Shown here piece after piece: positions 39,271 through 52,456 of a DNA stretch of 64,000 nt. How positions within the stretch are numbered: position 1 is the first letter of the stretch; each line of letters starts with the position of its first letter. A program made the translations under genes and the position numbers. The notes beneath the pieces were generated by a model. The model was given only the letters and a program-made list of their open reading frames with translations, ran no database searches and had not been told where the DNA came from. Source of the stretch: Mariniblastus sp. (lineage in GTDB: Bacteria; Planctomycetota; Planctomycetia; Pirellulales; Pirellulaceae); contig JAKVBF010000003.1 of the NCBI GenBank assembly GCA_022447555.1, forward strand, positions 162,279 to 226,278, read 5' to 3'.

Positions 39271-42200
39271 TCACTGGGTCAGGTGCTCTAGGTGTTCCTG
39301 CAAAAACTCTTTGAACTTGGGTTGCTTGACTTGATCGGGATGTTTGAAATTGATGCGAACCAGATCTTTCCCATTGACGTTGGTGACGCTGGGGTCGTCG
39401 GCCAGATCGGCCACTCTTCCCAAAGCTACCGTGTTTTGGGGACATGAAAGTTGCAGCCAAAGCGCGTCCGGCTTTTTAGTTTGAATACTGGCCCAAGGAT
39501 CCTTCTGATCGGGCCGGTAGAGGTGGACAACCTGCTTGTTCTTCCACAGGATGCTTCCATCGGGTGAGATTTCCTGAAGTAGATTGTGCAGCACCTCCAG
39601 CACTTCAAAGTCCCACTGAACCTTGCGGCCGGTGGGGAAACCTTTTTGCATAAAGTGCCACTTCTGTCCCAGTTTCGCCCAAGGGGTGTGGTCATCGATA
39701 TTCAATTCAACCCGCTTGATCCGGTTTTGAAAACTGGCGATGGCCTGATCCAAAAATTCCCAGAATGCGGGGATGTTGATCTCCTGCCACGAGTGGGCCC
39801 GAATCTCGATCTCCTGAAAACCGCTTTTGTTATTCAGGACGCGAACCCGGGGAGTGTTCCCGTAGATTGGCAGGTCGTCCATTTCATTGGCTGTTTGTAA
39901 GGGCAGTTGCTCGATCAATTCATCCCGCTTAAAGGTTCTTGGTCGCACGCGGAACTTCATCTTTAAAAGCCAAGCTTCGCCGGTGATCGCGTGAAAGAAC
40001 CAGCCCTGCGACTTTTTGAGACCGGTGATCTCGACCACGGTCCGCTCGCTCCAGTTGGTTTCTCCAAAGCCCTCTTCGCGTTGGATGTAATCGGCGACTT
40101 CTTCCAATATTTTTCCGTCCCAATTAACCGGCTCGCCTTGGCGACCGACGCGGTCTTGAGTGTGCCAACGCCGCCCATCCGATTCCCAAGGCATTTTAGC
40201 CGATTTTCCGATGTCCTCGATGTCCATATCGTTCTTCCGCCATCGGTCGTCTCTGTTGGGATTGTATTCGACCCGCTCTGCGTAAGGTCCTGCTTCGAGA
40301 ACGCTGGCTAGGGCATCTCCCGTGTAACTGGGTGGCTGTTCCGATTTGGGTTTCCGGGCTTGCTTGGCATATTGAACGATCATTTCCGGGGTGCCCTGCA
40401 CCACGATGTGACCGCCGCCCATTCCGGCCTCGGGTCCCATATCGATCACCCAGTCGGCCGCCTTAATGATGTCTAGGTTGTGTTCGATCAAAACCACACT
40501 GTTGCCGATGTCGACCAATCGCTGAAGGACTTCCAGAAGCTTAGCAAGATCGTCAAAATGCAAGCCCGTGGTCGGCTCGTCAAGTAGATACAAGGTTCGG
40601 CCAGTGTCAGGGCGGGCGAGTTCGGCCGCCAGTTTAACTCGCTGGGCTTCTCCGCCGGAAAGGGTTGGAGCGCTTTGTCCTAGTGTAACGTAGTCCAGTC
40701 CAACGTCGCACAAGGTCTGTAGAATACGACGGATTTTTGGGATGTTTTGGAACAGTTGAACCGCTTCGCCGCAGGGCATCTCAAGAACGTCATTGATCGA
40801 ATGGCCGTTGAAACGGACAGCCAGTGTCTCTTCGTTGTAACGCCGCCCTTTGCAAGAATCACACCGCACCCAAACGTCAGGTAGAAAATGCATTTCAATG
40901 CAGATTTGTCCATTACCTTGGCATTCTTCGCAGCGACCACCTGGAACATTGAAACTGAACCTGCGGGCCGTATAGCCGCGCAGTTTAGCGTCCGGCAGAT
41001 GAGCATAAAGATTCCGGATTAACTCAAAGACGCCAGTATAGGTTGCCGGGTTCGAGGTCGGGCTGTTACCGAGGGGTGTCTGATCGACCCGAATGACTTT
41101 ATTGATGTGTTCGATTCCGGTGATACCTCGATGGCCACCGGGACTGGTCGAGGCGCGATGCAATCGTTGAGCCAACGTGTTATAGAGTACGTCGTTGATC
41201 AATGAACTCTTGCCGCAGCCACTGGGGCCGGTGACGACGGTAAGGGTTCCCAAAGGGATTTGTACGTCGATCTCTTTGAGGTTGTTATGATGGGCGCCAA
41301 AGATATTGATTGTGTTGGCCAGCGGCCCAGTGGGGGGCCCCATTTCAGCGGCTGTGGGATTTGATTTTTTAGATTTGGATTTTGTCTTCTTTTTCTTCGT
41401 TGGGCCCGGTGGTGATGGAACGGCGAGGGCAGGGCGGCGATTCGTGGGAATGGGGATCCCCTTCTTGCCGCTCAAGTAGGGTCCGGTCACGGAGGCCCGT
41501 TTTTTGCCAACTTGGGTTGGCGTGCCATGGGCGATGATCTCACCGCCGCCGACTCCGGCCTTGGGACCAAAATCAAAAATATGATCGCTATTTTCAATGA
41601 TTTCGCGATCGTGCTCGACGACGATTAGGGTGTTACCCAAATCTCGCAATCGATGCAGTGCCGATAACAATCGGGTGTTGTCGCGGGGGTGCAGACCAAT
41701 AGTCGGTTCGTCTAAGACGTACAGAACGCCGCACAAACCGCTGCCCAATTGGCTGGCGAGGCGGATCCGCTGAGCCTCGCCATTGGAGAGCGATCCCGCC
41801 GTGCGTGAAAGTGTGATGTATTGCAATCCTACATCGTTCAGGAATTCGACACGATTGGTGATTTCACGAAGGAGTTCTCCAGCAATTTTAGATTCGCGGG
41901 CATCCAATTTCCAACTTTTAATTTCACGGGCCAGCTGTCCAAACGGCATCCGGCACAAGCCGTCAATGACATGGCCACGAAATTGTACAGCGCTGGCATC
42001 ATCTCGCAGGCGACTGCCGCCACAGCTGCCGCATTCGACTTCGCCAATCAGCGATTGCATTTTCATTCGCAGTCCGGGTGATAAGCGAGAGGCTTCCTCG
42101 AGAGTTGGGTAAACCCCTTTAAATTGGAACGAGAAAACGACCTGTTTTTTGTCGACCACGTCGAACCAGCGATCGTTGGTGCCGTAATAGATGATCCGTC

Positions 42201-45200
42201 GATTACGGGCGTCGAGTTGGTTGAAGGGGACGTCCATCGGGATGCCGGTCGCTTCACACAACACCTTCAACATGACTTTGGAAAGCCGAGTATTTTGTTC
42301 CGGCCAAAGCCCAATTGCCCCTTCTTTCAAGGATAGTTCTGGATCTCGCATCACGATTTTGGGATCTGCGCCCGTTTGAGTTCCGATCCCTTCGCAATCA
42401 TCACACCAACCGAGGCGGCTGTTAAAAGAGAAGTTGTGCGGAGAGAGCGCTTCGAAACTACGACCGCATTGCTCGCATGCTAGATGTTGGCTGTGGCGGA
42501 TTGTGGTCCAATGGTTTTCGGGCACGTTTTCCTGTGGGATGGCGACCATCATCACGCCGACTCCCAGTGAAAGTGCCGCTTCGACACTATCGGCAATCCG
42601 GCCGTGTGATTTCTTTTGGACCACGACTCGATCGACTACGACCTCGACGGTGTGCCGGGATCGACGGTTGGGTGAGGGAGCCTCATCGATGGGGTAGGTG
42701 ATGCCATCTAGTCGAACTCGCATGAAACCTTTGGCTCGGATCTCTTCCCACAGTTGATCAAAGGACTGCGACGAATCAAGAACTATCGGAGCCAGAAGAA
42801 TCAACTTTTGACCGCTGGGATGTTGCATGATTTTGTCGACGATTTGATCACTGGTCTGAGTCCCGATTTTGATCGCGCATTCGGGGCAATAGCCAGTGCC
42901 TAGACGAGAAAATAGGATTCGCAAATAATCGTAGACCTCGGTAACGGTACCGACGGTTGAGCGGGGCGTCGAACCAAGATTCTTTTGCTCGATTGCGATC
43001 GCCGGTGAGAGCCCTTCAATCTGGTCGACTTTGGGTTTCTCCAATTGATTGACGAATTGCCTGGCGTAGGAACTAAGGCTTTCGACATAACGCCGTTGAC
43101 CCTCGGCATAGATGGTGTCCATCGCCATTGAGCTTTTGCCACTACCACTGGGGCCACAGAAAACCGTCATCTTATCCCGAGCGATGTCGGCGTCGACTAT
43201 CTTGAGGTTGTGCTGCTCCGCCGCCCGCACTTTGATTTTGGTCGAAATGGTAGGTTGTTTGACGGTCTTCCGTTTGCGAGCCGGCTTGACTTTGGTAACC
43301 GGCTTTTCTCCCATCGCCCGAGCGAGCGCTTGGCCGGTCATCGAGGCTTTGTTCTTGATGATTGTTTCAGGGGGACCCGCACTCACGATCTGGCCACCAC
43401 CGGCTCCTCCTTCGGGTCCGAGGTCAATGACCCAGTCGGCCGTCTTGATCACATCCAAATTGTGCTCGACCACCAGCACTGTATTACCGGCCGCGACGAA
43501 GCCTTGCAGAACATTTAAAAGAAGTTGGATATCGGCAAAGTGGAGCCCGGTCGTCGGTTCATCCAGCAAGTAAAGGGTTTTACCGGTACTGCGTTTGACC
43601 AACTCACGGGCCAGTTTGATCCGCTGAGCTTCACCGCCCGAAAGCGTGGGTGAGGGTTGTCCAATTTTTAGATAATCCAGCCCAACATCCTGCAGTGTTT
43701 TGAGTTTGTCGTAAATTTTAGGAATGTTTTCGAAAAAGACCATCGCCTCAGCAACGTCCATGTTGAGGACATCAGCGATTGACTTGTCTCGGTATTTGAC
43801 CTGCAGGGTTTCACGATTGAAGCGTTGTCCTTGGCACACTGGGCAGGTGACCCAGACATCCGCCAAGAAGTCCATTTCTAGTTTGTTACTGCCGTTCCCT
43901 TCACACGCTTCACAGCGGCCGCCTTTGACGTTGAAGCTGAATCGACCTGGCTTGAAGCCTCGCTTCTTAGCATCCGGTAATTGCGTATAGAGCTTGCGAA
44001 TCTCATCAAATAACTTGATATAGGTTCCTGGGTTACTGCGAGGGGTTCGCCCGATCGGAGATTGATCGATGGCAATCAGCTTATCCATCAACTCGAGGCC
44101 CTGAAGCTCCTTATAATATCCAGGGTCGCCAATCCCGCGGTTTAGTTTTTCTCGCAAGGCTTCGACCAGAATGTCATTCACGAGTGAGCTTTTGCCACTG
44201 CCACTGACGCCTGTTACACATACGAACATACCCAGCGGGATTTCAACATCGATCCCTTTTAAGTTGTTGTGTTCGGCCCCCAAGATGCGGAGCATTTTAT
44301 CCGGGTTTGGAGAACGCCGCTGTTCCGGAATGGCAATCGTTTTATTACCGCTAAGGTATTTCCCGGTGACGCTATCTTGAGAGGAACCAATGTCTTGAGG
44401 TGATCCTTCGTAGACGACATGACCTCCGTGAACACCAGGACCCGGACCAAAGTCGATGATGTGATCGGAGGCTCTCATCGTGTCTTCGTCGTGTTCTACC
44501 ACGACCACGGTGTTGCCGAGATCGCGAAGGTGTTGCAACGTACCAATGAGCCGATCGTTATCGCGCGGATGCAACCCGATCGAGGGCTCATCCAAAATAT
44601 AGAGGACACCCACCAGCCCAGCGCCGATCTGGCCGGCCAAGCGAATCCGCTGACTCTCGCCACCCGAGAGTGTGGGCGCAGTTCGGTCAAGTGTTAGGTA
44701 GTCGAGTCCTACATTCAAAAGGAAACCCAAACGGTTGCGGATCTCTTTGACGGGTTCGACCGCTACCAAAGCACGCGTTGCGTCCAATTCCAGTGAACTG
44801 AAAAAATCAAAAGCCTCGGCGATCGACAATTGACAGATGTCTGGCAAGGCAAGGCTGGCTCGATCCGCAAAGGCCGGATTACTGGACTGTAAACGGAAGT
44901 GCCGGGCCTGTTCATTCAGGCGCTTTCCATCACATGAAGTGCACTTCATTTCGTCCATGTACTGTTCGAGCTGCCGTAATTTTGGAGCGCTTTTTGTGTT
45001 TCGGTACTTTTCGTCCAGTTCGGGGATGATCCCGGCAAATGTGCCCCCGTATTTCATTGGCGAGCTTCCACCTCGCCAAGTGTAAGTGATATGCAAGTCC
45101 CCTGTTCCATAAAGCCAAACCCGTTGCAATTCAGCTGGAAGTTCTTCCCAAGCCGTTTCGAGGAGAGTGCCTTCGGGTAACTCTTTCAAACGCTCGTAAG

Positions 45201-46236
45201 TCCCGGCGACACCCTTGTAAATATGACGACGCCAACGGCCGAGATCTTTCCACTTGCCAACCAGCTGAATGCAGCCTTGCTGGAATGACTTACTCGGATC
45301 TGGGATAAGCAATTCCGGATCAAATGTGAAAACGTCACCCAATCCGTCACAGTCATCACACATACCCTGTGGGCTGTTGAATGAAAACATCTGAGGAGTC
45401 GGGGGGGTAAAGCTGATCCCGCAATCGGCGCATGCGTAGTCCGAGGAATAAACTCGACCTTTCGGTTTTCCACGGGCGCGTGAACGGCTGGGCGCCTCGG
45501 CAGGTTCGGTCTCTTCATCATCGGTTGCGATGATCAGCGTCCGCTTCCCAATTTTCAATCCGAGCTCAACCGCCTCACTCAATCGTGCTCGAATACTAGG
45601 GCCCGATTTAAGACGGTCAATCACGACTTCAATATCGTGACGCTGCTGACGCTCCAGTTGGATATCGCTCGTTAGCGAACGAATCTCTCCATCCACTCGA
45701 ACTCGTGAAAATCCCTGTTTCAATAAATCTGAAAACAGGTCGCGGTGCTCACCTTTTTGGGCTCGAATAATGGGAGCGAGAACGGAGTACTCAGTCCCTT
45801 TAGAGATTTGTAGAATACTACCAATGATTTGGTCGCGCGACTGAGCTGAAATGGGTTGGTCGCATTTGGGACAGTAGCCTTGACCTGCACGAGCGAACAG
45901 GACACGAAGAAAATCGTAAATTTCCGTAATGGTCCCGACGGTGCTGCGGGGGTTATTGCCGGATGATTTTTGAGAGATTGAGATCGAAGGACTTAGTCCC
46001 GAGATCAAATCCACGTCCGGCTTAGGCATCTGGCCTAAAAATTGACGCGCAAAGCTTGACAAGCTCTCGACGTATCTGCGTTGCCCTTCGGCAAACAGCG
46101 TGTCAAACGCGAGCGAGCTTTTACCACTGCCACTCACACCCGTGAGGCAGATCAATTTATTGCGAGGTAATATTAGGTCGACGTCACGCAAATTATGTTC
46201 ACGTGCGCCCTTAATCGTTATGTCCGAAGCTGGCAT
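39271..46236 (-). CDS. uvrA: Tandem-duplicated UvrA excinuclease subunit with C-terminal extension
   Basis: The protein of about 2321 residues contains two complete UvrA units and thus four ABC ATPase domains. The first Walker A lysine is about K39 (GVSGSGKSS) and the second copy begins near residue 1000 with K1034 (GPSGSGKSS). Both repeat the UvrB-binding, zinc-finger and signature regions (CPKCDQ, GGRCEACEGNG, SGGESQRIRLA, LYLLDEPTTGLHF). UvrA senses helix distortion and loads UvrB in nucleotide excision repair. Duplication is also known in Chlamydia, another PVC lineage. The last 330 residues, from about 1990, are an extra region with no recognised family. I favour ATG at 46236 because ITIKGAREHNL starts there; ATG 46260 is the alternative. 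Confidence 0.93.
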   Translation of the reverse strand: MPASDITIKGAREHNLRDVDLILPRNKLICLTGVSGSGKSSLAFDTLFAEGQRRYVESLSSFARQFLGQMPKPDVDLISGLSPSISISQKSSGNNPRSTVGTITEIYDFLRVLFARAGQGYCPKCDQPISAQSRDQIIGSILQISKGTEYSVLAPIIRAQKGEHRDLFSDLLKQGFSRVRVDGEIRSLTSDIQLERQQRHDIEVVIDRLKSGPSIRARLSEAVELGLKIGKRTLIIATDDEETEPAEAPSRSRARGKPKGRVYSSDYACADCGISFTPPTPQMFSFNSPQGMCDDCDGLGDVFTFDPELLIPDPSKSFQQGCIQLVGKWKDLGRWRRHIYKGVAGTYERLKELPEGTLLETAWEELPAELQRVWLYGTGDLHITYTWRGGSSPMKYGGTFAGIIPELDEKYRNTKSAPKLRQLEQYMDEMKCTSCDGKRLNEQARHFRLQSSNPAFADRASLALPDICQLSIAEAFDFFSSLELDATRALVAVEPVKEIRNRLGFLLNVGLDYLTLDRTAPTLSGGESQRIRLAGQIGAGLVGVLYILDEPSIGLHPRDNDRLIGTLQHLRDLGNTVVVVEHDEDTMRASDHIIDFGPGPGVHGGHVVYEGSPQDIGSSQDSVTGKYLSGNKTIAIPEQRRSPNPDKMLRILGAEHNNLKGIDVEIPLGMFVCVTGVSGSGKSSLVNDILVEALREKLNRGIGDPGYYKELQGLELMDKLIAIDQSPIGRTPRSNPGTYIKLFDEIRKLYTQLPDAKKRGFKPGRFSFNVKGGRCEACEGNGSNKLEMDFLADVWVTCPVCQGQRFNRETLQVKYRDKSIADVLNMDVAEAMVFFENIPKIYDKLKTLQDVGLDYLKIGQPSPTLSGGEAQRIKLARELVKRSTGKTLYLLDEPTTGLHFADIQLLLNVLQGFVAAGNTVLVVEHNLDVIKTADWVIDLGPEGGAGGGQIVSAGPPETIIKNKASMTGQALARAMGEKPVTKVKPARKRKTVKQPTISTKIKVRAAEQHNLKIVDADIARDKMTVFCGPSGSGKSSMAMDTIYAEGQRRYVESLSSYARQFVNQLEKPKVDQIEGLSPAIAIEQKNLGSTPRSTVGTVTEVYDYLRILFSRLGTGYCPECAIKIGTQTSDQIVDKIMQHPSGQKLILLAPIVLDSSQSFDQLWEEIRAKGFMRVRLDGITYPIDEAPSPNRRSRHTVEVVVDRVVVQKKSHGRIADSVEAALSLGVGVMMVAIPQENVPENHWTTIRHSQHLACEQCGRSFEALSPHNFSFNSRLGWCDDCEGIGTQTGADPKIVMRDPELSLKEGAIGLWPEQNTRLSKVMLKVLCEATGIPMDVPFNQLDARNRRIIYYGTNDRWFDVVDKKQVVFSFQFKGVYPTLEEASRLSPGLRMKMQSLIGEVECGSCGGSRLRDDASAVQFRGHVIDGLCRMPFGQLAREIKSWKLDARESKIAGELLREITNRVEFLNDVGLQYITLSRTAGSLSNGEAQRIRLASQLGSGLCGVLYVLDEPTIGLHPRDNTRLLSALHRLRDLGNTLIVVEHDREIIENSDHIFDFGPKAGVGGGEIIAHGTPTQVGKKRASVTGPYLSGKKGIPIPTNRRPALAVPSPPGPTKKKKTKSKSKKSNPTAAEMGPPTGPLANTINIFGAHHNNLKEIDVQIPLGTLTVVTGPSGCGKSSLINDVLYNTLAQRLHRASTSPGGHRGITGIEHINKVIRVDQTPLGNSPTSNPATYTGVFELIRNLYAHLPDAKLRGYTARRFSFNVPGGRCEECQGNGQICIEMHFLPDVWVRCDSCKGRRYNEETLAVRFNGHSINDVLEMPCGEAVQLFQNIPKIRRILQTLCDVGLDYVTLGQSAPTLSGGEAQRVKLAAELARPDTGRTLYLLDEPTTGLHFDDLAKLLEVLQRLVDIGNSVVLIEHNLDIIKAADWVIDMGPEAGMGGGHIVVQGTPEMIVQYAKQARKPKSEQPPSYTGDALASVLEAGPYAERVEYNPNRDDRWRKNDMDIEDIGKSAKMPWESDGRRWHTQDRVGRQGEPVNWDGKILEEVADYIQREEGFGETNWSERTVVEITGLKKSQGWFFHAITGEAWLLKMKFRVRPRTFKRDELIEQLPLQTANEMDDLPIYGNTPRVRVLNNKSGFQEIEIRAHSWQEINIPAFWEFLDQAIASFQNRIKRVELNIDDHTPWAKLGQKWHFMQKGFPTGRKVQWDFEVLEVLHNLLQEISPDGSILWKNKQVVHLYRPDQKDPWASIQTKKPDALWLQLSCPQNTVALGRVADLADDPSVTNVNGKDLVRINFKHPDQVKQPKFKEFLQEHLEHLTQ

Positions 46237-46756
46237 CTCTAGGCGACGATTCCCATCCATAGCGCACGTTGTAATCAAAAAACGAACCAAGCATTCTATC
46301 AGCGGAACCGCATCGTCTCTACCGCGCCACCAAGACACCTAGGATTTTTGGGATCGCCGCTGTTGGGGCGATTTAAGGCAGTCATTCGGCCAACCATGCG
46401 ATTCAAGGGGTGCGTGGAGATGGGTACGCGGGGTCGGAAGTCATGACCGACTCAACCAAAAACCTATCTTTTCTATCAATTTGTCTCCTTTTCAAGCCTT
46501 TCTGGTTAGGGAGCGGTGAATTGGGATTTCAGACAATTTGCCACTTGTTCTTTCAGTGCCGATGTGGCGTACCGACCCGAACTTCTTTTTTTTGATAAAT
46601 TCGATTTCCAAGTTCATTCCGAGGGTCCAGTAAATTCCGGAGCTGGGCTGACCTTCGGGTTTCGGGAAGTTAAACTGTTGACGTTGGTCAAAGGCCGATG
46701 ATGCCTAGCTTACGGCCGACCTTTTTAAGTTTTATGTCTCAATATCGGAGAGTTGG
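46237..46756. other. Divergent intergenic region between uvrA and the DUF1080 gene
   Basis: This 520-base region separates the divergent uvrA and DUF1080 genes and should hold both promoters. A short inverted repeat is visible at 46433-46451 (GTCGG and CCGAC, nine-base loop). I find no LexA-like site by eye and no gene. The first 24 bases may be coding if uvrA starts at 46260. Confidence 0.5.
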
Positions 46757-50012: not shown

Positions 50013-51284
50013 CTATCGCTCGCTTCCGATAAATTCTTTCGATTTCCTCTCGAGTTTTAAAGGGTCAGCCGATTTTTTCTGTTTCCTGATATTCAGGCGA
50101 TATAGATCAATAAGATACTCTTTGGAGACTTCTTCGCATTTACTGCTGACGTTCTCGACCGTCTGGTTAGAAAAGAAGAGGGGAAGGGAAACGCCCCAGT
50201 ATTCTGAATCATTGTGAAATAGGTCCCAAGATTTGGAGAGTGACGGGATTGAAGTTTCTTGAGTTAATTGTTGCCCCTTCAATGGCCCCGATAGCGCAAT
50301 CCCGGTGAGAGCATCCCAAACTGATTTGGTTTGCGCATCCGTGAAGCCGGCGGAGTGAGAAGAAAATTCAAGTGTTTGATCATTCAACCGACGGTGGAAG
50401 ATGGTGGCCGTACCCGTATTTTCCTGAAAGGCAATCACGATAGGCTCGTCGGCATAGGAGTCGTTCACGATGGGTTCCAATGTCAATTGATCGAATCGCC
50501 AGGCTTTTGGAGGGTAACCTGGTTGGCAAACCCCAACGAGGTACTGTCCGAGCCTTCCTTTATAACACCCCGACTCGTAGAACCTAGACAACGGGGGCAG
50601 CACCATGACCGTAGTGAGGGGATGTTTCTCTTTCCAGCTTTTCCACTGGGTCAGGACCGAAGGTCTGGCTTGCAAGGTCTGTCCATCGAGTTCTCCTTCC
50701 ATCGCCCTTCCCAGCAACTGACTCCATAGTGAACCGGTTGCTTGGTCTTGCATGATCACTCCTCGTTCCCAGAGCATTCCGGACACGTAAAATGTGGGGT
50801 CTTCTTCGCTGTCTTGCAGCCTTCGGTCATACACGATGCCGTTAAAACCGAGCTCTCACCAGGTGACTAAGATCGGTTCGCCACCAAGGTAGTCATTGAT
50901 CAGTTCTCGCTTGGGCCCGGTCAGTTGGTTGATCGGATAGGCTCGATGTTCTCCATTGACTTCGACTCCAAGTACTAAGTCCTCGTCCGCCAAAAAGTCT
51001 TTTTCATTGAGTTCCCCAGTCCGCTTGACCTCAGGCTCGATGATGGGGGTTTGAACCACCCCTGCCATGAGTGGGTTGAATGGTGGGTGCGTGGAAGCGA
51101 CTTCTGATGGTGCCCTTTGGCATCCAGGGAATAGCAGAAATAAGACCATGCACAAAAGCGTTAGAATGGACAAGTTTAACCAGTGGATGGCGAACTTTTT
51201 TTCGGGCTGTATTGGGTTGAGAATGGGCATGCCGATAAGCCTGATATCTTCGATTGAAGGGCTGTGTGGGAATTCGTTATTCAT
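50013..51284 (-). CDS. DUF3179 protein with in-frame TGA, candidate selenoprotein
   Basis: Read through one TGA at 50858-50856 the frame gives 423 residues in a single unbroken phase. The N-terminus has a membrane anchor or lipoprotein-like segment (LCMVLFLLFPGC). Domain DUF3179 follows: LVLGVEVNGEHRAYPINQLTG, then EPILVTW, the TGA as residue 143, ELGFNGIVYDRR and WERGVIMQDQATGSLWSQLLGRAMEG. In DUF3179 proteins the residue after VTW/VTY is normally a conserved Cys of a CPLC motif, so TGA stands at a Cys position. The codon is followed by a SECIS-like hairpin. Selenocysteine insertion is therefore a good explanation. A nonsense mutation is the alternative. AAGG precedes the ATG at 51284. Confidence 0.8.
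50823..50852 (-). promoter_or_regulatory. SECIS-like hairpin just downstream of the in-frame TGA
   Basis: In the mRNA, UCGGU (nt 5-9 after UGA) pairs with ACCGA (nt 29-33). An apical stem ACG (14-16) pairs with CGU (21-23) around a GCAU loop. The loop G lies 17 nt after UGA, inside the 16-37 nt window known for bacterial SECIS elements, and an unpaired U-run lies at 10-12. Position and loop fit SelB recognition; the structure is drawn by eye only. Confidence 0.5.
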
Positions 51285-51376
51285 CTACTAGCCTTTTGTG
51301 ATTCAAGTCCCGATCCAATCTGTGGTTGTCCATTGAGTGGAAAGGCGTGATGGGGGTGGCAGGTCCCTCAATCTTC

Positions 51377-52456
51377 TCAGAGGACCTGTAAAATGTGATT
51401 GATATTCTCGAACGTGACGGGTTGAATAATTCCCTTTTCGGTGATGATTGCGTCGATGTAGTCTGCCGGTGTCACATCAAAGGCCGGGTTGTAGACTTCG
51501 ATTCCGTCGGGTGCCGTTTGCCGCCCGAAACCGTGGGTTATTTCTTCCGGTTGACGTTCTTCAATTGGGATTTGATCCCCGGACTCCAACGACAGATCGA
51601 ACGTACTACTGGGAGCTGCAACATAAAAAGGGATTCCATGAGCTCGTGCCAAAACTGCTACTGAATAGGTCCCGATCTTATTTGCTGAGTCGCCATTTGC
51701 CGCAATGCGATCCGCTCCCGTCACGACCGCATGAACACGTCCCTCTTTCATCACCTGAGCCGCCATGGAATCACAAATGAGCGTGGCCTGAATTCCTCGC
51801 TGCATCAACTCCCAAGCTGTGAGTCGAGCCCCTTGTAATAACGGGCGAGTTTCATCGACAAAAACGTGCAACTCTTTTCCCATATCTTGAGCCGTAAAAA
51901 AAACACTGAGGGCAGTGCCGTATTCGGCCGTCGCCAAGCCACCTGCGTTGCAATGGGTGAGGACGCCATGGACATCTTCTCCCAATAGCTTGGCACCAAA
52001 TTGACCAATTGAACGACACATTTCACGATCCTCCTGATGAATCGTTTGAGCTTCTTCCAGCAGTTTCTGTGTGATCTCGGTGAGTTCAAGTTCGCCTCGT
52101 AGTGAGTGGCAAAGTTGCTGCATGCGATTCAGTGCCCAAAAAAGATTGACAGCGGTTGGACGACTGGATGCAAGGTACTCGGCTGTTTGTTGTGCAACTC
52201 GATAATACTCCCCTTCATCTTCGTGATTTGTTGATTGTAAACCGATGACAAAACCATAAGCGGCTGCGATCCCGATGGCCGGGGCCCCTCGGACCCGCAG
52301 CATCTTGATCGCTTCCCAAACCGTGCTGACATCTCGGCATTCCAAGTATCGCACCTCAGATGGCAGCAAGGTTTGGTCGATCATCACCAAATGTCCTGTG
52401 ACAGCGCAGCCTGACCATGATAGTGTTTCAACGGCGTTATCAGCGGACATGATCAT
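51377..52456 (-). CDS. mtnA: S-methyl-5-thioribose-1-phosphate isomerase
   Basis: MtnA converts methylthioribose 1-phosphate to methylthioribulose 1-phosphate in the methionine salvage pathway. The 359-residue protein has the family's EIF2B-like fold with MLRVRGAPAIGIAAAYG, the catalytic Cys region VLTHCNAGGLATAEYGTAL and the catalytic Asp region VVTGADRIAANGDSANKIGTY. The end (YNPAFDVTPADYIDAIITEKGII) is typical. It could also act on related sugar phosphates, but the motifs are those of MtnA. Two Met codons, at 52456 and 52450, leave the start open. purE lies 32 bases upstream on the same strand. Confidence 0.93.
   Translation of the reverse strand: MIMSADNAVETLSWSGCAVTGHLVMIDQTLLPSEVRYLECRDVSTVWEAIKMLRVRGAPAIGIAAAYGFVIGLQSTNHEDEGEYYRVAQQTAEYLASSRPTAVNLFWALNRMQQLCHSLRGELELTEITQKLLEEAQTIHQEDREMCRSIGQFGAKLLGEDVHGVLTHCNAGGLATAEYGTALSVFFTAQDMGKELHVFVDETRPLLQGARLTAWELMQRGIQATLICDSMAAQVMKEGRVHAVVTGADRIAANGDSANKIGTYSVAVLARAHGIPFYVAAPSSTFDLSLESGDQIPIEERQPEEITHGFGRQTAPDGIEVYNPAFDVTPADYIDAIITEKGIIQPVTFENINHILQVL

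Follow-up and report, generated by a model that had tools for sequence, protein, structure and literature searches.

The locus and its reading frame

The window analysed here, a 64-kb stretch of a Mariniblastus sp. genome, carries on its minus strand an ATG-started reading frame that runs for 423 codons before it terminates; an in-frame TGA at codon 143 is the sole stop within it (Table 1). The read-through product scores 175.5 bits for the Pfam family DUF3179 (PF11376), where the cut-off is 27, and none of the NCBIfam models matched it at E 0.001. Because the best-matching stretch, residues 82-238, spans residue 143, the two flanks of the TGA share one phase, which bears out the earlier note in describing a single continuous frame that resembles DUF3179 on both sides of the TGA and contains no frameshift. 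A GTG-started frame of 273 aa lies 3′ of the TGA. The mtnA-like gene directly upstream (51377-52456) itself terminates with TGA, and TGA is thus not reassigned genome-wide. Residues 29-55 of the product likely serve as a membrane or lipid anchor, the Cys of the putative lipobox being aligned with a Cys in 10 of 69 rows. Elsewhere in the window (39271-46338, minus strand), a frame of 2355 residues resembles, by eye, two UvrA proteins in tandem.

Table 1. Features of the DUF3179 locus (positions in the 64-kb window).
Feature	Position	Strand	Remarks
Probable DUF3179 selenoprotein gene	50013..51284	-	423 residues, Sec at 143
In-frame TGA, probably read as Sec (U143)	50856..50858	-	TGA at the homologous codon in 89/97 distinct sequences, Cys in 8/97
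GGT = Gly146, partner-Cys position of relatives	50847..50849	-	UxxG instead of UxxC
Putative SECIS hairpin CGGCAU[CGUGU]AUG(A)CCG, one bulged A	50824..50841	-	covariation; alone -3.9 kcal/mol
First half-domain, residues 110-214	50643..50957	-	Rieske-like in predicted model; U143 at strand end
Second half-domain, residues 257-350	50235..50516	-	Rieske-like in predicted model
N-terminal hydrophobic helix and weak lipobox, residues 29-55 (Cys55)	51120..51200	-	helix 29-51 in predicted model; lipobox by eye
AAAGG, ribosome-binding-site-like, 7 nt 5′ of ATG	51292..51296	-	by eye from sequence

Homologues at the TGA codon

The DUF3179 protein was matched in 25 of 60 genomes of relatives, and the genomes of 84,980 species, scanned with peptide patterns that omit the Sec position and allow Cys or Gly at +3, contributed the best 80 of 81 confirmed loci. 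Together the two sources gave 109 loci, with the motif covered in 108, and, with the window included, 121 rows; removal of 10 fragments, 6 rows with neither Sec nor Cys and 8 same-contig repeats left 97 distinct sequences. TGA occupies the corresponding position in 89 of these (87 UxxC, one UxxE and the UxxG of the window) and Cys in the remaining 8 (5 CxxC, 2 CxxG and 1 CxxH), with flanks conserved on both sides rather than the downstream decay that the earlier note would have counted as a refutation. The in-frame UGA is therefore aligned with Cys or Sec of homologues, as is required of a selenoprotein. Among the 70 Sec sequences with named taxa, 40 belong to Planctomycetota, 25 to Verrucomicrobiota and 3 to Candidatus Poribacteria, while 2 are unplaced; since planctomycete sequences supplied the scan patterns, the family spreads at least this widely.

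The closest relatives, L002 (59% identical) and L003 (54-55%), come from the same genus as the window's genome and have TGA at the same codon. They also share the gene order of the locus, in which aminotransferase, purE and mtnA genes, the DUF3179 gene, and HEAT-like, condensation-domain and 3-keto-disaccharide hydrolase genes follow one another. The family's cysteine had been placed in a CPLC motif in the earlier note; Cys does occur here in homologues, but CPLC marks a more distant subgroup, and the nearest relatives carry UHLC, USMC, UQIC or UNLC. The canonical CPLC proteins (L010, L011, L018) belong to the same Pfam family and share the fold region of the window protein, but they are only 29-39% identical to it, have Cys for Sec and lack an insert of two residues that precedes the conserved acidic stretch.

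Further Sec-type members were seen in the survey. A second, more distant DUF3179 subgroup, with the motif UTLC, occurs in nine same-genus genomes (L012-L017, L019, L020 and L027), with TGA at the Sec column and a pairing hairpin of its own, CUGAU[CGUGU]AUCAG. One locus, L058, holds two Sec-type DUF3179 genes (rows L058 and L058.1), and a distant DUF3179 sequence (L029:1501-1893) reads USSE in the motif and is followed by a strong hairpin of -10.4 kcal/mol.

Selenocysteine machinery of the genome

The source assembly (4.19 Mb in 62 contigs, 97.5% complete) encodes SelA (C11:7009-8367; 569 bits, cut-off 267.9), SelB (C62:172533-174428; 357.9 bits, cut-off 242.25), SelD (C3:79091-79999; 273.2 bits, cut-off 125) and a tRNA-Sec (C7:67645-67740; 68.6 bits, cut-off 47) to which ARAGORN assigns the anticodon TCA. 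All four genes whose presence the earlier note had proposed to check, selA, selB, selC and selD, were thus found, and with them the genome is equipped to decode Sec. When the same families were run against 14 control genomes of well-known organisms without Sec use, scores above cut-off were obtained in 2 genomes for SelB, 5 for tRNA-Sec, 1 for SelA and 2 for SelD. The tRNA-Sec family is hence the least specific of the four, and it is the ARAGORN call that settles the identity of the tRNA. A tRNA scan across the 64-kb window detected no tRNA, so that the Sec-decoding genes sit elsewhere in the genome.

SelD lies inside a frame of 733 residues (L136:484-2685, G000:C3), apparently a fusion, the N-terminal part of which resembles, by eye, an FAD/NADH dehydrogenase. 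In a genome of the same family (L047), the SelD gene contains an in-frame TGA, and that SelD may itself be a selenoprotein.

A covarying hairpin downstream of the UGA

The region from the TGA onwards was aligned for every Sec sequence except L029 and the second gene of L058, which makes 87 of 89, and the alignment is free of gaps over 45 columns. RNAalifold, unaided, predicted one helix of five pairs closed by a five-base loop. In this helix 98.8% of 430 cells are paired (86 distinct rows), and four of the five pairs vary on both sides. Two-sided changes amount to 48 cells against 7.7 (sd 2.2) in shuffles, a value that none of 500 shuffles reached, and when the helix is slid by one to three columns merely 19-56% of cells pair.

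The covariation extends to the choice of synonymous codons, as the base that decides between Ile and Val forms a pair with the last base of the Tyr codon located two codons downstream. Ile is accompanied by UAU in 69 of 69 cases and Val by UAC in 19 of 19, that is, in 88 of 88 sequences where the Tyr is present, and one further Val is followed by His CAC, which also pairs. From each gene's other Tyr codons, 35.9 UAC would be expected in the Ile set and 10.1 in the Val set, and base composition therefore fails to explain the coupling. When the Ile/Val and the Tyr-codon traits are mapped on a tree that holds 94 of the 97 sequences (all but L024, L126 and L127), each changes 10 times, and 10 independent pairs can be drawn over all branches; the pairs on supported branches number four, all agreeing, which is too few to be decisive alone (sign test p 0.125).

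In the window gene the hairpin starts 14-15 nt after the TGA, with six pairs and a 5-nt loop, CGUGU, situated 20 nt after the TGA. In the window, as in L002, L003 and L095, G faces A at column pair 20-32, and a single bulged A allows the stem to close. Folded alone, the window hairpin reaches -3.9 kcal/mol, compared with means of -5.6 over the 89 Sec and -2.1 over the 8 Cys sequences. The bacterial SECIS model in the legend of Fig. 2 of PMC13188914 shares with it the loop distance of 20 nt from the UGA, a G at the second position followed by U, and a stem of 5-6 pairs, but gives an energy of -7.5 kcal/mol or lower, which the 60-nt stretch of the window attains (-14.7 kcal/mol) only through another fold. 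The predicted minimum-energy fold of that stretch is a different stem that does not contain the covarying hairpin. A ribosome stalled at the UGA would cover the 5′ arm of this alternative stem, located 5 to 10 nt downstream, and the covarying hairpin would therefore be expected to form in practice.

Single-sequence folding energies were unremarkable against synonymous shuffles (mean z -0.46 over the 89 Sec sequences). Folds fitting SECIS rules were found in 68 of 89 Sec sequences against 48.2 expected, and in 2 of 8 Cys sequences against 3.6. In the close subgroup, three of the four Cys relatives (L007, L026 and L056) have no matching stem, whereas the TGA carriers keep it. Judged by the covariation, the hairpin is a predicted SECIS element under selection, weaker in the window gene than in its relatives.

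The partner position of the motif

The motif of the window gene is UELG. The second Cys is indeed replaced by Gly, as the earlier note had remarked, and the GGT codon is one base away from the orthologous TGT. The UxxG type that the note derived from this is present in the window sequence but is peculiar to it, being found in 1 of 89 Sec sequences, while the syntenic orthologues L002 and L003 keep UxxC (USMC and UQIC). The published DUF3179 motif, UxxC/UxxT, likewise covers these orthologues but not the window. CxxG occurs on a separate branch, in near-identical sequences from two genomes (L007 and L026), and Gly at +3 must accordingly have arisen at least twice. Three other cysteines, or an external thiol, could act as a substitute partner, to judge from the sequences: Cys240 and Cys383 occur in the window and both orthologues but in no other row (3 of 69 rows each), and no other row shares Cys253 with the window.

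It could be that the protein is a selenoprotein whose redox function is being lost through Gly146, or that Gly146 is a base error for Cys in this single genome. The one-base distance to the orthologous codon would agree with an error, and the rarity of UxxG with either reading, as would an exact-pattern scan of 392 genomes of the phylum, which recovered xxxG from the window gene alone, although the scan is insensitive (the same scan for xxxC gave 2). On the other hand, Gly is tolerated at this position in the CxxG branch, and the remaining conserved residues of the domain containing U143 have been kept. We regard loss or error at Gly146 as unlikely, but as deserving more weight than any of the alternatives to selenocysteine itself.

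Alternative readings of the TGA

Were the TGA a true stop, the gene would be either a pseudogene in decay or a pair of distinct genes, as might be suggested by the GTG-started frame after the TGA and by the fact that the DUF3179 gene evolves faster than its neighbours (54-59% identity to the relatives, against 79-89% for mtnA and purE). However, identity is alike on the two sides of the TGA (60% upstream and 62% downstream for L002, 56% and 58% for L003), the differences fall mostly at third codon positions, and the same TGA recurs in sequences from at least three phyla together with a covarying hairpin, all of which makes decay or a split gene highly improbable. For a sequence known from one assembled genome, it might also be supposed that sequencing or assembly turned a TGT or TGC into TGA, but TGA at the same codon in independent genomes, and a stem that is kept in TGA carriers and unmatched in most close Cys relatives, leave such an error hardly any credence. 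Translation of TGA as another residue, Trp for instance, through a suppressor tRNA or a variant genetic code would also leave the frame open, but it is scarcely conceivable given the TGA terminator of the upstream gene, the presence of a UCA-anticodon tRNA-Sec with SelA, SelB and SelD, and the use of Cys as the alternative residue in relatives.

We are therefore confident, from the comparative sequence evidence, that the gene most probably encodes a DUF3179 selenoprotein in which UGA is decoded as Sec by means of SelB and the downstream hairpin. This was also the central proposal of the earlier note, that a Cys has here been replaced by Sec, and the codon counts, the covariation and the Sec machinery uphold it.

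Predicted fold

The AlphaFold2 model of the whole protein has a mean pLDDT of 84.8, with most of the core above 95, and the first half modelled alone reaches 93.1. The two halves match DUF3179 profile positions 15-160 and 37-138, respectively, and as both match the same part of the profile, the protein is an internal duplication. In VIA-align comparisons, residues 110-214 gave a best Z of 7.5 (rmsd 2.9-3.0 over 93-95 residues) and residues 257-350 a best Z of 8.3 (rmsd 2.8 over 91 residues), best Z values of 7-8 being common without kinship. The 50 neighbours listed for each half were, by title, all Rieske proteins, NirD-type proteins or complexes with a Rieske subunit. Foldseek searches with both halves gave nothing at E <= 0.001 and unrelated top rows, comparing profiles with the four Rieske proteins that the genome itself encodes gave nothing (probability 1.7% and 0.4%), and PDB sequence searches found no credible match for the DUF3179 protein.

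The models suggest that the DUF3179 halves likely resemble the Rieske fold, a statement distinct from one of common descent. Each predicted half appears alike in overall fold to Rieske ferredoxins (91-95 of 98-106 residues aligned) and to NirD, a cluster-less Rieske fold. Unlike the Rieske ferredoxins, with their C-x-H...C-x-x-H cluster ligands, the halves have neither these ligands nor detected sequence similarity, and residues 110-214 hold only U143 and His113, with no other Cys. The Sec is the last residue of strand 53-60 (half-model numbering). An equivalence of the CPLC/UxxC motif with Rieske loop 2 (CPxH) was considered and dropped, since the strand order of the models puts the Sec well before the cluster-loop region and the profile comparison was null.

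Discussion

From gene content and covariation, one may propose that SelB with Sec-tRNA-Sec (UCA anticodon) would bind the hairpin 14 nt downstream of the UGA, and that the ribosome would then insert selenocysteine at residue 143 rather than stop. The product would probably reside outside the cytoplasm, held by its N-terminal lipid or membrane anchor, and is predicted to fold as a pair of Rieske-like beta domains, one a repeat of the other, that lack iron-sulphur ligands. The Sec, with which a strand of the first domain ends, would make the attack in a redox reaction of thiol/selenol type, and in most relatives the Cys at +3 would resolve the intermediate. As Gly replaces this Cys in the window species, resolution would presumably proceed via another Cys (Cys240, Cys383) or an external thiol. 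Extracytoplasmic selenol/thiol redox chemistry is thus a likely function for the DUF3179 protein.

A more comprehensive picture is that DUF3179 is a duplicated, cluster-less Rieske fold with a selenol/thiol centre at the end of a strand in the first domain, with a broad Planctomycetota-Verrucomicrobiota subgroup that is almost all Sec and within which the window species has a lone Sec and no partner Cys in the motif. Taken as a whole, we put this forward tentatively, as a possibility that has somewhat less than an even chance of being right.

That DUF3179 selenoproteins had already been recorded was an impression voiced in the earlier note, and it proved correct: two reviews tabulate them with the motif UxxC/T, crediting Zhang and Gladyshev 2007 (Olavius algarvensis symbiont). 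As tabulated there, the published proteins belong to the same Pfam family and have Sec at the first Cys of CxxC, as in the window; the window protein differs in its UxxG and in its planctomycete host, its close relatives being mostly from Planctomycetota and Verrucomicrobiota. The passages of open full texts that name DUF3179 or PF11376 contained no description of a planctomycete DUF3179 selenoprotein, its SECIS or a Rieske-like fold. A full-text search of PMC4807772, which deals with planctomycete selenoproteins and has its candidate table in a supplement, did not find the name DUF3179 in the article itself. The DUF3179 selenoprotein family is therefore already known, and the window gene is a well-supported additional member, without the usual partner Cys.

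Automatic annotation would stop at the TGA and so miss two thirds of the protein, as it would with dozens of relatives. The covariation provides strong sequence evidence for a SECIS in the DUF3179 family, and the coupling of Ile or Val with the Tyr codon is a handy test of genuine Sec sites. The Rieske-fold reading, if true, would for the first time link DUF3179, a family with no assigned function, to structural relatives and suggest a chemistry that can be tested, and this by-product of the analysis may outweigh the selenoprotein finding in importance.
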